DNA of 64,000 bases from Deltaproteobacteria bacterium (GTDB lineage Bacteria > Desulfobacterota > DSM-4660 > Desulfatiglandales > Desulfatiglandaceae). The stretch lies in NCBI GenBank assembly GCA_021737785.1, contig JAIPDI010000025.1, positions 1 to 64,000 of the forward strand, read 5' to 3'. Shown piece by piece: positions 572 through 31,158 of the stretch (position 1 is its first letter; every line of letters starts with the position of its first letter). The translations under genes and the position numbers were made by a program. A model generated the notes under the pieces. It had not been told where the DNA came from and did not search any database. It saw nothing but the letters and a program-made list of their open reading frames with translations.

Positions 572-587
572 GGCATGCTCCTCTTGT

Positions 588-655
588 GACGTGTGAAGTT
601 GGAAATTTGGAGTTTGAAGTTGAATGGTGAAGCTGCGGTTTGAAATTAGCCTTGT
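588..655. repeat. Degenerate word-like intergenic repeat
   Basis: Just upstream of dnaA the sequence is an imprecise run of the words GAAGTTGGAA, TTTGGAGTTTGAAGTTGAA and GGTTTGAAATT. It codes for nothing plausible. Similar but not identical short-word runs sit at several other gene borders in this window. Confidence 0.5.
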
Positions 656-689
656 TCGTTGTGCCTTGCGCCTGCAATGTTGATCGAGG

Positions 690-985
690 CTTTTACACGA
701 AATCGCAAAGGCCTGTCAAAGGTCACGGCGGGGAATGAACACTTACGTTAGGTCTCCTTTTCGACACCTGCTAACCGGTCCCGTTTGCAGGCAAAAACGG
801 ATGCGCAGATGTAAGGGGGCGAGAAAAGGGACGAAATCACCTGTAGAAAATCATATGTAAAGACAATGGGTTAATCAAAATTGAAGTATTGTGGAAAATG
901 TTATCCACATCATCGAACTCCCGATTACTTCATCTTTCACACTTTTTTGGCGATTTTCAATTTTTCTGGCTTTTTTTTTCGGTAC
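690..985. other. oriC: Candidate chromosomal origin (oriC) with DnaA boxes
   Basis: Between dnaA and ddl there are two perfect DnaA boxes facing each other: TGTGGAAAA at 890-898 (reverse) and TTATCCACA at 901-909 (forward). Three one-mismatch boxes lie at 691-699 (TTTTACACG), 842-850 (TGTAGAAAA, reverse) and 933-941 (TCTTTCACA). They are followed by a T-rich tract at 941-980 that could be the unwinding element. Position beside dnaA, and parAB/parS 29 kb away, fit an origin. Some of these boxes may instead serve dnaA autoregulation. The tract ends just before the ddl start. Confidence 0.65.
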
Positions 986-997
986 AGGGGGGAGCGG

Positions 998-1930
998 GTG
1001 ACGCGCAAAATCAGGATTGCGGTGCTGGCAGGGGGTTGGTCCGGTGAGAGACAAGTCTCTTTAAAGAGCGGAAAGGCTGTTTACGAGGCCCTCAACAGGG
1101 AGAGATACGATGTAACCCTCTACGATCCCCGGGACGACCTTGAGACTTTGATCAGAAAGAGGGGGGAGATAGACCTGGCTTTTATCCTGCTTCATGGAAG
1201 GTTTGGAGAAGATGGAAGGATCCAGGGGATGCTGGATCTGTTGCAGATCCCCTTTGTGGGATCCGGGGTACTGGCCAGCGCCATGGCTCTGAATAAACGG
1301 GTTGCAAAGGATGTTTTTAGAAGGGCCGGGCTGCCGGTGGCAGAGGATATGATCCTGAATCGCGGAGAGGGGTTTTCTGCAGACGAGGTTGCGGAGAGGC
1401 TCGGGGTTCCTCTGGTGGTCAAGCCGGTCTCCGAGGGGTCCAGTCTCGGGATCGCTATCGCACATGACAGGGAATCGATCGCGGAAGGTATAAAGAAGGC
1501 CTTTCAGTATGACAGGGAGGTGATGGCCGAGGCATATGTGGCGGGAACCGAGATTACCTGTTGCGTTCTGGGGAACCAGGCGCTCGAGGCACTTCCTGTT
1601 GTGGAGATTGTTCCGACGGATGCGTACGCCTTTTTTGACTACGAGGCCAAATATACGCCGGGCGCCACCCGTGAAATCTGTCCGGCCCCCATCCCGCAGG
1701 TCCTGGCCCAAGAGGCCGCCAAATGGGCAAAAGCAGCGCACACCGCCCTGGGCTGCCGCGTTTGGAGCAGGAGCGACATGATCATTCGGGATGAGACCCT
1801 CTATCTGTTGGAGACCAATACCATCCCCGGAATGACCGAGACCAGCCTTTTTCCCCTGGCGGCCCGGGCCGCAGGCATGTCCCTTTCCGATCTCCTGGAC
1901 AGGATGATCGCCCTTTCCCTGGAGGATTAG
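998..1930 (+). CDS. ddl: D-alanine--D-alanine ligase
   Basis: ATP-grasp enzyme that joins two D-alanines for peptidoglycan precursors in the cytoplasm. The GTG at 998 is preferred because GGGGGGAG precedes it and the protein then begins VTRKIRIAVLAGG; upstream in-frame codons run through the oriC AT-rich tract. Family signatures are present: GGWSGERQVSLKSG near the N-terminus (Glu of the SxER motif), VVKPVSEGSSLG for ATP binding, and RSDMII...LETNTIPGMTETS at the Mg2+/substrate site. At 310 residues it has the normal length. No other cell-wall gene is adjacent; it stands alone and is divergent from dnaA. Confidence 0.93.
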   Translation: MTRKIRIAVLAGGWSGERQVSLKSGKAVYEALNRERYDVTLYDPRDDLETLIRKRGEIDLAFILLHGRFGEDGRIQGMLDLLQIPFVGSGVLASAMALNKRVAKDVFRRAGLPVAEDMILNRGEGFSADEVAERLGVPLVVKPVSEGSSLGIAIAHDRESIAEGIKKAFQYDREVMAEAYVAGTEITCCVLGNQALEALPVVEIVPTDAYAFFDYEAKYTPGATREICPAPIPQVLAQEAAKWAKAAHTALGCRVWSRSDMIIRDETLYLLETNTIPGMTETSLFPLAARAAGMSLSDLLDRMIALSLED

Positions 1931-29341: not shown

Positions 29342-29357
29342 TGTTTCACGTGAAACA
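29342..29357. promoter_or_regulatory. parS: parS site 1
   Basis: TGTTTCACGTGAAACA, a perfect 16-bp palindrome identical to the consensus chromosomal parS bound by ParB. It is 188 bp upstream of the parA start. Confidence 0.93.
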
Positions 29358-29401
29358 CCGGTATTCGGAATGAGTGTTCGAATTGGTGTTTTGCGATCCG
29401 A

Positions 29402-29417
29402 TGTTTCACGTGAAACA
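29402..29417. promoter_or_regulatory. parS: parS site 2
   Basis: A second identical TGTTTCACGTGAAACA exactly 60 bp after the first (about 5.7 helical turns). Two sites at this distance next to parAB probably form the ParB loading centre near the origin. Confidence 0.93.
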
Positions 29418-29544
29418 TGGTTTTGTCTTTTCAATCCGGAAGGATTGTGCTATCAATCCACTTGTCTTTGATTCACTTGTGCCCAGGGGCGGAAATTTCC
29501 CGGGGCGGGATCTAACATTCCTTAACAGGCGGTTACTTTCAGTC

Positions 29545-30306
29545 ATGGGTCATGTCATCTCCATCTCCAACCAGAAGGGCGGCGTGGGAAAAACCACCAC
29601 CGCGGTCAACCTTTCCGCCTCCCTCGCCGCAGGAGAGAAGGAGTGTCTTCTTATCGACTGCGATCCTCAGGGGAATGCCACCACCGGGCTGGGCATAGAC
29701 CCGGCCGACATAGCGCACGGCCTCTACGATGTCCTCCTCGACGGAGTGCCGCCCCATGAAGCGATCACCGCGACCCTCCTTCCCAGGCTCCATTTGATCT
29801 GCGCCAGCCGCAATATGATCGGGGCCGAGGTGGAGATGGCCTCCATGGAGGGAAAGGAGTTCCTCCTGCGGAATGTGGTTGCCGCACTCAGGAATGAATA
29901 CGACTACGTATTTATTGACTGTCCCCCCTCTCTGGGCTTTCTGACGGTGAATGCCCTCACTGCCACCGAATCCGTCCTGGTTCCGCTTCAATGTGAATAT
30001 TATGCCCTGGAGGGACTCTCTCAACTCCTTACTACCGTCAATGCGGCGAAAAAACGACTTAATCCGCGGCTTCAGCCACCGGATATTCTCCTGACCATGT
30101 ATGACAGCCGCAACAATCTCTCACGCCAAGTGGAAGAGGAGGCCAGGTCGCTCTTCAAGGACCGGGTGTTCAAGACGGTAATTCCGCGGAATGTCCGTTT
30201 GAGCGAGGCCCCGAGTTATGGAAAACCAATTATTTTGTATGACATCAGCTCCAAAGGGGCCCAGAGTTACCTGGCCCTTGCCAGGGAACTGATCAAGAGG
30301 GGATAG
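29545..30306 (+). CDS. parA: Chromosome partitioning ATPase ParA
   Basis: 253 residues from ATG at 29545 (MGHVISISNQKGG); upstream in-frame codons pass through parS and are not conserved. Deviant Walker A is KGGVGKTTT; Walker A' IDCDPQGNATTGLG and Walker B FIDCPPSLG follow. It is the ParA/Soj type without an extra N-terminal DNA-binding domain, as is usual for chromosomal copies. parB starts 6 bp downstream. ParA moves the ParB-parS complex during origin segregation. Position 28 kb from dnaA/oriC agrees with this. Confidence 0.95.
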   Translation: MGHVISISNQKGGVGKTTTAVNLSASLAAGEKECLLIDCDPQGNATTGLGIDPADIAHGLYDVLLDGVPPHEAITATLLPRLHLICASRNMIGAEVEMASMEGKEFLLRNVVAALRNEYDYVFIDCPPSLGFLTVNALTATESVLVPLQCEYYALEGLSQLLTTVNAAKKRLNPRLQPPDILLTMYDSRNNLSRQVEEEARSLFKDRVFKTVIPRNVRLSEAPSYGKPIILYDISSKGAQSYLALARELIKRG

Positions 30307-30312
30307 GGTATC

Positions 30313-31158
30313 ATGACCAAAAGGAAGGCCCTCGGAAAAGGCTTGTCCGCACTGATCCCGGATGCCGACCGTCTGGATGGGGAAGAAGCGGTCTTTTTTC
30401 AGTGTCCCATAGAGACGATTTCGCCGAATCCCAATCAGCCGAGGCAGCAGTTTTCCCCTGTCGAGCTGGATGAGATAGCGACATCAGTTAAGGAAAAAGG
30501 GATTCTCACACCGCTTTTGGTCAGCCGGATCGAAGGCGGGTATCAACTCATTGCAGGCGAACGCCGGTGGCGGGCGGCTCAGAAGGCGGGTCTTGAGCGC
30601 GTGCCGGTGGTGGTCAGGGACGTCACCCCTGTGGAGGCCCTTGAACTGGCGCTCATTGAGAATATCCACAGGACGGACCTGAATCCCATCGAGGAGGCGG
30701 CTGCATACCACAACCTGTTGGAACAGACCGGGATGACGCAGGAGGAACTGGCCAGGAGGCTGGGCAAGGATCGGTCCTCGGTAACGAATCTGCTGCGCCT
30801 TTTACGGCTCCCGCGTGCCATTCAGCAGGATGTGATGGATGGGCGGTTGAGCATGGGGCATGCCCGGCTGTTGGCCGGACTCAAGGACGCTACGGCGCAG
30901 AAGGCCCTGTGGGATGTCATCGTGAAGAGAGGGCTTTCTGTCAGGCAGGCGGAAGCGTTGGCAAAAAGAGGAAAGGCCTCTTCAGGCGCAGGGGGAAAAA
31001 GACCGTCCAGGGATCCCTATGTTCTATCCCTGGAGGACAGGCTCAAACGCTCCCTTGGCACCAAGGTCGAGATCAAAACAAGGGGCGGGAAGGGCCATAT
31101 TATGGTGCACTTCTATTCCGATGAGGAATTGGACAGACTGATGGAATTCTTTGGTTGA
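30313..31158 (+). CDS. parB: Chromosome partitioning protein ParB
   Basis: 281 residues beginning KALGKGLSALIPD, the segment that stimulates ParA. The CTPase/clamp motifs are visible: PNPNQPRQQF (box I), LIAGERRWRAA (box II, GERRxR) and ALIENIHRTDLNPIEEA (box III). A helix-turn-helix for parS follows (TQEELARRLGKDRSSVTN) and the C-terminal dimer domain ends LDRLMEFFG. Six bp separate it from parA. Its last 46 bp overlap the convergent plsY gene. Confidence 0.95.
   Translation: MTKRKALGKGLSALIPDADRLDGEEAVFFQCPIETISPNPNQPRQQFSPVELDEIATSVKEKGILTPLLVSRIEGGYQLIAGERRWRAAQKAGLERVPVVVRDVTPVEALELALIENIHRTDLNPIEEAAAYHNLLEQTGMTQEELARRLGKDRSSVTNLLRLLRLPRAIQQDVMDGRLSMGHARLLAGLKDATAQKALWDVIVKRGLSVRQAEALAKRGKASSGAGGKRPSRDPYVLSLEDRLKRSLGTKVEIKTRGGKGHIMVHFYSDEELDRLMEFFG

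Follow-up and report, generated by a model that had tools for sequence, protein, structure and literature searches.

The 426-bp gap between dnaA1 and ddl holds a conserved noncoding element that we read as the DnaA1-dependent chromosomal replication origin (oriC) of an uncultured, sulfate-reducer-type (Desulfobacterales-type) bacterium, and the genome seems to hold two oriC-dnaA1 modules. The full reading that we favor, at a probability of roughly two in three, is that positions 686 to 979 are oriC, that the module at one place (location 1) is the one used, that the module at the other (location 2) is a passive spare, that gene conversion maintains the pair, and that a second DnaA, DnaA2, is a partner or regulator. 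As to its parts, the identification of the dnaA-ddl element as oriC is reasonably supported, and the location-2 module is probably a near-silent spare. The oriC call itself is ordinary; a duplicated module with one apparently passive copy is less so. The window, meaning the whole stretch analyzed, covers 64,000 nucleotides (C25:1-64000) of a 5.33-Mb draft assembly (G000; 96 contigs, 3.11% contamination), of which contigs C25, C37, C49, and C91 bear on the origin modules.

Anatomy of the element between dnaA1 and ddl

A sequence-only reading had proposed a compact oriC at 690 to 985. That interval is close to the noncoding block kept between the two copies, and the neighbors are as described there: dnaA1 starts on the minus strand at 571, with its N-terminal 190 codons in the window, and ddl starts on the plus strand with a GTG at 998 (Table 1). 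The element is indeed compact, at ~290 bp, but a single compact origin is an incomplete account because the module exists twice in the genome. The window holds dnaA1 only as a fragment; the full-length DnaA1 orthologue of the relative G018 scores 405 bits against TIGR00362, above the cut-off of 344.

Table 1. Features of the origin region; coordinates refer to the window unless a contig is named
Feature	Position	Strand	Remarks
dnaA1, N-terminal 190 codons	2..571	-	contig begins inside the gene; TIGR00362 match of 143 bits as a fragment (cut-off 344)
Spacer between dnaA1 and origin element	572..685		differs between the two copies; short repeat near 596-647
Origin element (putative oriC)	686..979		~290 bp; 96% identical in second copy, C49:731-1024; aligned with 8 other genomes
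Weak DnaA box TTTTCGACA	758..766	+	2 mismatches
Weak DnaA box TTTTCTACA	842..850	-	2 mismatches
DnaA box TTTTCCACA	890..898	-	1 mismatch; left half of inverted pair
DnaA box TTATCCACA	901..909	+	perfect; right half of inverted pair
T-rich tract, presumed unwinding element (DUE)	910..985		T runs also in relatives; unwinding presumed
ddl, D-alanine--D-alanine ligase	998..1930	+	GTG start (by eye); NF002378, 359 bits (cut-off 243)
parS (presumed)	29342..29357		exact match to 16-bp consensus
parS, second (presumed)	29402..29417		exact match; 60 bp from the first; ~28 kb from origin
parA/soj-like and parB/spo0J-like genes	29545..31158	+	named by eye from sequence, start by eye
dnaA2	G000:C37:8066-9382 (L018)		DnaA2 within dnaN-gyrB-gyrA operon in 14 aligned genomes

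Mismatches in boxes were scored against the E. coli DnaA-box consensus. The pair at 890-898 and 901-909 is inverted with a spacing of 2 bp, as the sequence-only reading had it, but only one of the two boxes is perfect and the other carries one mismatch. The box at 901-909 is the sole perfect E. coli-consensus box within the window, and the looser TTWTNCACA fits both members of the pair. Instead of the three near-perfect boxes claimed in addition, there are two boxes with two mismatches each, and a scan of 690-985 at up to two mismatches returned four boxes in total and nothing further. At least four boxes at that threshold occur in 17 of 2548 sliding windows of ~300 bp. A search of the window for the pair sequence TGTGNAWAANNTTWTNCACA, allowing up to two mismatches, gave a single hit, itself free of mismatches, where 100 shuffles predict 0.07. 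The claim of an AT-rich tract holds: positions 845 to 985 are 32% GC in a window of 55% GC, and the lowest-GC 100-bp window lying wholly within 690-985, at 33% GC, falls in the bottom 0.5% of 6390 windows.

The element is kept, as noncoding sequence, beside dnaA1 in related genera, and the TTTTCGACA/TTTTTGACA block is retained in all ten aligned sequences. Fifteen dnaA1 gaps hold 12 near-consensus boxes, against 2.5 expected by shuffling, with 7 of the 15 gaps having none. The box pair lies above chance (p<=0.05) in 23 of 68 regions upstream of dnaA1 homologues and is not significant in the remaining 45; this set includes both copies from our genome and one region (L164) that was anchored on the wrong dnaA and counted as a miss. 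Among 42 dnaA1 loci, ddl lies within ~1.5 kb upstream in 22, the location-2 gene in 5, and neither in 15.

Two sites farther along the window match the 16-bp parS consensus exactly, and we take them to be parS. The pair stands just before the parA-parB-like genes (29342-31158), and a search at up to two mismatches found no parS in C37, C49, or C91. The region combines a cluster of DnaA boxes, an AT-rich flank, adjacency to dnaA, and parS with parAB-like genes nearby. The inverted pair is a plausible candidate for a core loading site, as had been proposed from its arrangement.

Two other readings of the region were tried and not adopted. A DnaA-trio/BUS reading, under the rule that three or more NAN trios lie no farther than 16 bp from a DnaA box, gave two trios on the T-rich side and three on the other, with chances of at least three of 0.78 and 0.60, respectively; trio counts are thus no better than chance, and the rule has no discriminating power here. 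A plasmid origin was set aside as the first 8 kb gave no useful plasmid match, with one match to an FtsX-like gene only. Separately, the spacer carries short GTTGGAAATTTGGAGTTTGAAGTTG-like repeats at 596-647, of which 25 of 26 bases recur on an unrelated contig of the relative G001.

A second copy of the module in the assembly

A DNA search with the gap returned a second match at C49:731-1024, 96% identical over 294 bp, in which the 20-bp box pair is identical. A second dnaA1 N terminus lies at C49:2-571, and its protein is 96% identical over 190 residues. The copies share dnaA and 686-979 and differ at 572-685 and beyond 979; over 396 aligned positions their identity is 91%. The first 139 bp of C25, which lie inside dnaA, are also the exact first 139 bp of C49, and C37 and C91 agree in the same way over another 139 bp, the 3' end of dnaA1. 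Such a convergence of four contigs on a collapsed core is the trace expected of a two-copy repeat in a de Bruijn assembly. The middle of dnaA1 is absent from the assembly, with ~211 codons missing as judged from residue numbers, and the 5'-to-3' pairing of contigs (C25 with C37, C49 with C91) was assigned by synteny.

Location 1 in our genome, split over C25 and C37, reads ddl-oriC-dnaA1-gpsA-gyrA-gyrB-dnaN-dnaA2, with parABS nearby. The usual order in relatives (G012, G022, G035, G010, and G050) is ddl-oriC-dnaA1-small gene-(birA)-(gpsA)-gyrA-gyrB-dnaN-dnaA2-cooC; gpsA and birA are absent from that place in G018 and G003. In G003, contig C415 runs unbroken through dnaA1 to gyrA, and ddl lies on a separate contig joined solely by a 55-bp overlap. 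A conserved frame of ~57 codons, seen by eye, occurs in the birA-ddl gaps of the genomes labeled g12 (L218, L259, and L260) and near gpsA on C37 (L018, ~500-700).

Location 2, on C49 and C91, reads era...radical SAM-PHP/helicase-oriC-dnaA1-glycosyltransferase. C49 carries rnc, era, two further genes, a radical-SAM gene, and a PHP-UvrD-type gene, and C91 carries the glycosyltransferase. Matching neighbors flank dnaA1 in four g12 genomes (G013, G057, G059, and G060); dnaA1 was not found in a further g12 genome, G058. In G002, of our genome's own genus, the radical-SAM gene lies on one side and genes of C91 on the other, past a gap. The gene beside the second origin (L019:1081-4311) matches TIGR00375 in its N-terminal part and UvrD/PcrA-type helicases in its C-terminal part, all below cut-offs, and its homologue in G002 and G060 is reduced to a short N-terminal match next to oriC. 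Homologues of the radical-SAM gene (c49_4682) have one in-frame TGA in L231, L233, and L234 (G050, G017, and G012), a possible selenocysteine codon.

The second copy might instead be an artefact, in which two strains, one per location, were merged or C49 and C91 are contaminants from a relative. The draft is in 96 contigs with 3.11% contamination, the copies lie on separate contigs, and the g12 genomes (and G002, as far as found) have the module at location 2 only, all of which speaks for such an artefact. We nevertheless regard it as very unlikely. C49 alone has an era that exceeds its cut-off as a single unit (on C2, a frame does so only when two domains are summed), and C25 alone has a ruvB above cut-off; both contigs therefore belong to the core chromosome, and contamination is unlikely. 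Composition agrees, with tetranucleotide correlations of C49 to the two halves of C25 of 0.976 and 0.964. A mixture of strains should break contigs at the outer edges of the module, yet C25 is unbroken from oriC into ddl and C49 is unbroken into the PHP gene. Finally, a three-way overlap within the element is present in G003, which belongs to another genus.

In that genome, three contig ends (the dnaA1, ddl, and location-2 sides) share one 55-mer within the element, and the two continuations past the 55-mer are alignable yet different, implying that the origin, or no less than the right half of it, is present a second time in G003. The terminal 46 bases of the G018 location-2 contig are identical to the oriC-ddl gap of G018 itself, an overlap that is suggestive of duplication there but was not counted as evidence for it. 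A search with the dnaA1 N terminus (E<=1e-40) matched 31 of 46 family genomes, among which our genome alone has two; draft assemblies hide such repeats. Contig breaks inside dnaA1 at G047:C35 and G007:C164 were considered as further signs of duplication and left out of the count.

The g12 genomes differ at location 1, which reads gpsA-birA-ddl without dnaA1 in all three that are readable (G013, G057, and G060). Alignment of the element to their birA-ddl gaps gave scores of 22 to 27, against shuffle means of 25 to 28, whereas g12 location-2 gaps scored 89 to 120 against a shuffle maximum of 39. An unrooted dnaN+gyrB tree places g12 with more distant genera, apart from g1, with support of 100; how g2 and g17 fit into this order has weak support (58 to 75).

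The two copies in our genome are 96% identical in the oriC core, compared with 63 to 71% to each of eight other genomes, some of which have dnaA1 at location 2, and a branch with support of 100 sets the two own copies apart from the rest of the dnaA1 tree. Because location 2 is common to other genomes, yet our own copies are most alike, this pattern suggests an old duplication with later homogenization as the simplest reading. A fresh copy placed into an already occupied location-2 site would be expected to give the same pattern. One might picture a several-genera lineage of uncultured Desulfobacterales-type bacteria that stably carries two near-identical modules at separate chromosomal sites under gene conversion, the second dormant but competent and able to take over, with g12, where the module survives at the second site only, as an end point of relocation, either of the origin or of the initiator gene; we put this forward tentatively, as a doubtful generalization.

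Two DnaA paralogues and the position of the skew switch

The sequence-only reading remarked on ddl rather than dnaN beside the origin. While ddl is present, dnaN-gyrB-gyrA also exists, in an operon with a different DnaA paralogue, DnaA2, which lies ~10 kb from dnaA1 in relatives; ddl rather than dnaN flanks the origin because the genome has two dnaA genes. DnaA2 of our genome and DnaA1 of G018 both score above the DnaA family cut-off. All 15 aligned DnaA1 sequences retain the inner Walker A glycine and the sensor-II arginine, and in Walker B they have EE (13) or DE (2) in place of DD. In 14 aligned DnaA2 sequences Walker B is DD, the inner Walker A glycine is kept in 2 and lost in 12, and the sensor-II arginine is kept in 1 and lost in 13. 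Relative to B. subtilis DnaA, the first glycine of Walker A is substituted in 15 of 15 DnaA1 and 13 of 14 DnaA2 sequences. Because it is missing from DnaA1 as well, its loss is no ground for calling the DnaA2 ATPase eroded. Two weak matches to the DnaA C-terminal domain (26 to 28 bits, below cut-off) also occur 13 kb apart on G000:C23 (L007 and L009), and G001:C191 (L103) carries an extra dnaA-dnaN-gyrB set, 27 to 58% identical to our cluster and present in addition to the usual set, which may be a contaminant or an extra replicon.

Strand-balanced GC skew was computed by averaging fourfold sites over plus and minus genes, which removes gene-strand effects. In the single-contig relative G050, which served as calibration, it is -0.105 on the left arm (74 genes) and +0.085 on the right arm (107 genes), and raw skew changes sign in the dnaA1/ddl region. 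Raw skew in our genome has a negative sign along the cooC side of C37 and turns positive at the gyr block, staying so into C25. Strand-balanced skew on the ddl side (first 42 kb of C25) is +0.092 (35 genes; interval 0.056 to 0.141); on the cooC side it is -0.074 (31 genes), with an interval, -0.138 to 0.033, that crosses zero and with plus genes at -0.193 and minus genes at 0.044.

The cumulative minimum falls at the dnaA2/dnaN end, at C37:8203 in our genome and at 1374149 in G050, the latter in the dnaN-dnaA2 gap and 10.5 kb from the dnaA1 origin of that genome. The five plus genes of our gyr block score -0.014 (right-arm calibration -0.025, left-arm -0.208), a ddl-side score, and the minus genes gpsA, gyrA, gyrB, and dnaN of G050 score -0.148 to -0.342, siding with the dnaA1/ddl arm. 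In both genomes the gyr block points to a switch located at the dnaA2 end. A displacement of the minimum by ~10 kb can arise from operon orientation and codon bias, yet it counts against placing the origin exactly in the dnaA-ddl gap. Skew resolves the origin to ~10 kb, and within that distance it leans to the dnaA2 end. The proposal of an oriC between dnaA and ddl stands on the conserved element, the regional skew switch, and parS. The GC-skew check suggested with it found a sign switch in the dnaA-ddl region, with the cumulative minimum displaced by ~10 kb to the dnaA2/dnaN end.

These minima would be accounted for if the true origin were at the dnaA2 end, in the dnaA2-dnaN or the dnaA2-cooC gap, and the dnaA1 element were an autoregulatory promoter and DnaA-binding region that travels with dnaA1. 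The gyr genes, oriented away from dnaA2 and grouping by skew with the ddl arm, agree with such a position, as do the AT-rich dnaA2 gaps and the g12 genomes, whose location 1 keeps dnaA2-dnaN-gyrBA, a parS, and a switch-like skew without the element. We judge this arrangement unlikely all the same, though a stronger competitor than the artefact considered above. In 14 genomes the 28 gaps beside dnaA2 together contain 2 near-consensus boxes against 2.05 expected, with none of the enrichment seen in the dnaA1 gaps, although DnaA2 might read other boxes. The losses of the sensor-II arginine and the inner Walker A glycine in most DnaA2 sequences, the readiness with which skew minima shift with operon orientation and codon bias, and the element itself, whose ~290 bp, inverted boxes, and T-rich flank exceed what an autoregulated promoter generally needs, also speak against it. 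A bipartite origin of the B. subtilis or H. pylori type, with box clusters on both sides of dnaA or between two loci, was rejected for lack of box enrichment in a scan that covered these 28 dnaA2-side gaps.

The second copy has an intact element and boxes beside dnaA but no GC-skew switch of its own. Skew at location 2 is positive on both sides, at +0.104 on the era side (20 genes; 0.066 to 0.136) and +0.130 on the other (8 genes, no interval), and this lack of a switch indicates that the second copy is replicated passively. The same values bear on whether both copies might be active and fire within one cell cycle. In favor of dual firing, the copies have an identical box pair and an element of 96% identity, and two oriC copies are tolerated by engineered E. 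coli (Wang 2011, cited in PMC4403523). Era-side skew toward the copy is nevertheless opposite in sign to the signature of outward replication, the location-2 contig of G003 has the same sign (+0.128), and neither C49 nor C91 has a parS, so that dual firing seems to us very unlikely.

A regional skew switch together with parS at location 1 argues that location 1 is the long-term origin region. In g12, location 2 has the element without a clear strand-balanced switch, and location 1 of G060 has an exact parS and a switch-like skew. A move of the origin to location 2 in g12, hinted at by the raw skew of G013, did not find support once strand was balanced: G013, G057, and G060 all have values near zero to either side, and in G060 the parS and the switch-like skew are still at location 1.

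In the mechanism that we infer from the computed anatomy, the duplication in the assembly, the synteny, and the skew pattern, ATP-bound DnaA1 would nucleate at the inverted pair (890-909), spread across the weak boxes, enter the T-rich tract (910-985), and melt it, with helicase then loaded for bidirectional replication. The origin and dnaA1 would form one module, held twice by the genome, with location 1 as the origin region in use on an evolutionary time scale. The copy at location 2 would be replicated passively and serve at most as a rarely fired spare, or else as a source of extra dnaA1 dosage and DnaA-binding sites, and recombination (gene conversion) would keep the copies alike. In the weakest step, DnaA2, beside dnaN, may be a partner or regulator rather than the main initiator; the motif differences point only weakly to DnaA1 as the protein that opens the origin.

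Comparison with known systems

To our knowledge, the one-origin rule for bacterial chromosomes is nearly universal. With a near-identical spare module that leaves no mark in the skew and shares its location with other genera, one could ask how it is settled which of two origins of almost the same sequence fires; such a module would also be a natural intermediate for movement of an origin or an initiator gene. A second question comes from the two paralogues of this family: DnaA1 goes with the box element, DnaA2 with the dnaN operon, and the two deviate from the standard ATPase motifs in different ways. Among the matches listed in our literature search, with subscription literature mostly outside it, none described two near-identical oriC-dnaA units at separate sites in Desulfobacterota.

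Canonical DnaA-dependent origins beside dnaA are catalogued in DoriC/Ori-Finder. The element resembles these in its DnaA boxes, AT-rich tract, dnaA neighbor, location in a skew-switch region, and parS within tens of kilobases. It differs from them in having ddl as its flank instead of dnaN or rpmH, in its few strong boxes, in the second dnaA within the dnaN-gyrB-gyrA operon, and in the duplication of the module. A box pair beside a T-rich region also recalls the basal unwinding system (BUS), but the boxes here are inverted, whereas BUS boxes are most often tandem (57%; PMC8287927).

Two origins on one natural chromosome, of which one can be silent, are described for the single-chromosome V. 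cholerae strains NSCV1 and NSCV2 (PMC6284228). Those origins differ in type and stem from chromosome fusion, while the modules here are near identical and occupy locations common to other genomes. According to Gao 2015 (PMC4403523), evidence was lacking at that time that any chromosome used two functional origins; the V. cholerae fusion strains (PMC6284228) were described later. Two oriC copies or dnaA-oriC units per genome are also found in the duplication of M. bovis BCG Pasteur (PMC2448323) and in Acidaminococcus fermentans with its double dnaA (PMC4403523). Those copies are tandem or adjacent; here they have different neighbors, and the second site is shared across genera. More than one dnaA is likewise present in Chlamydiales and "Ca. 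Kuenenia"; Kuenenia has one dnaA by dnaN-gyrB and Waddlia has none at its skew minimum (PMC2878342 and PMC7709395). Unlike the arrangement in those lineages, the DnaA boxes in this family adjoin a dnaA that lies outside the dnaN operon.
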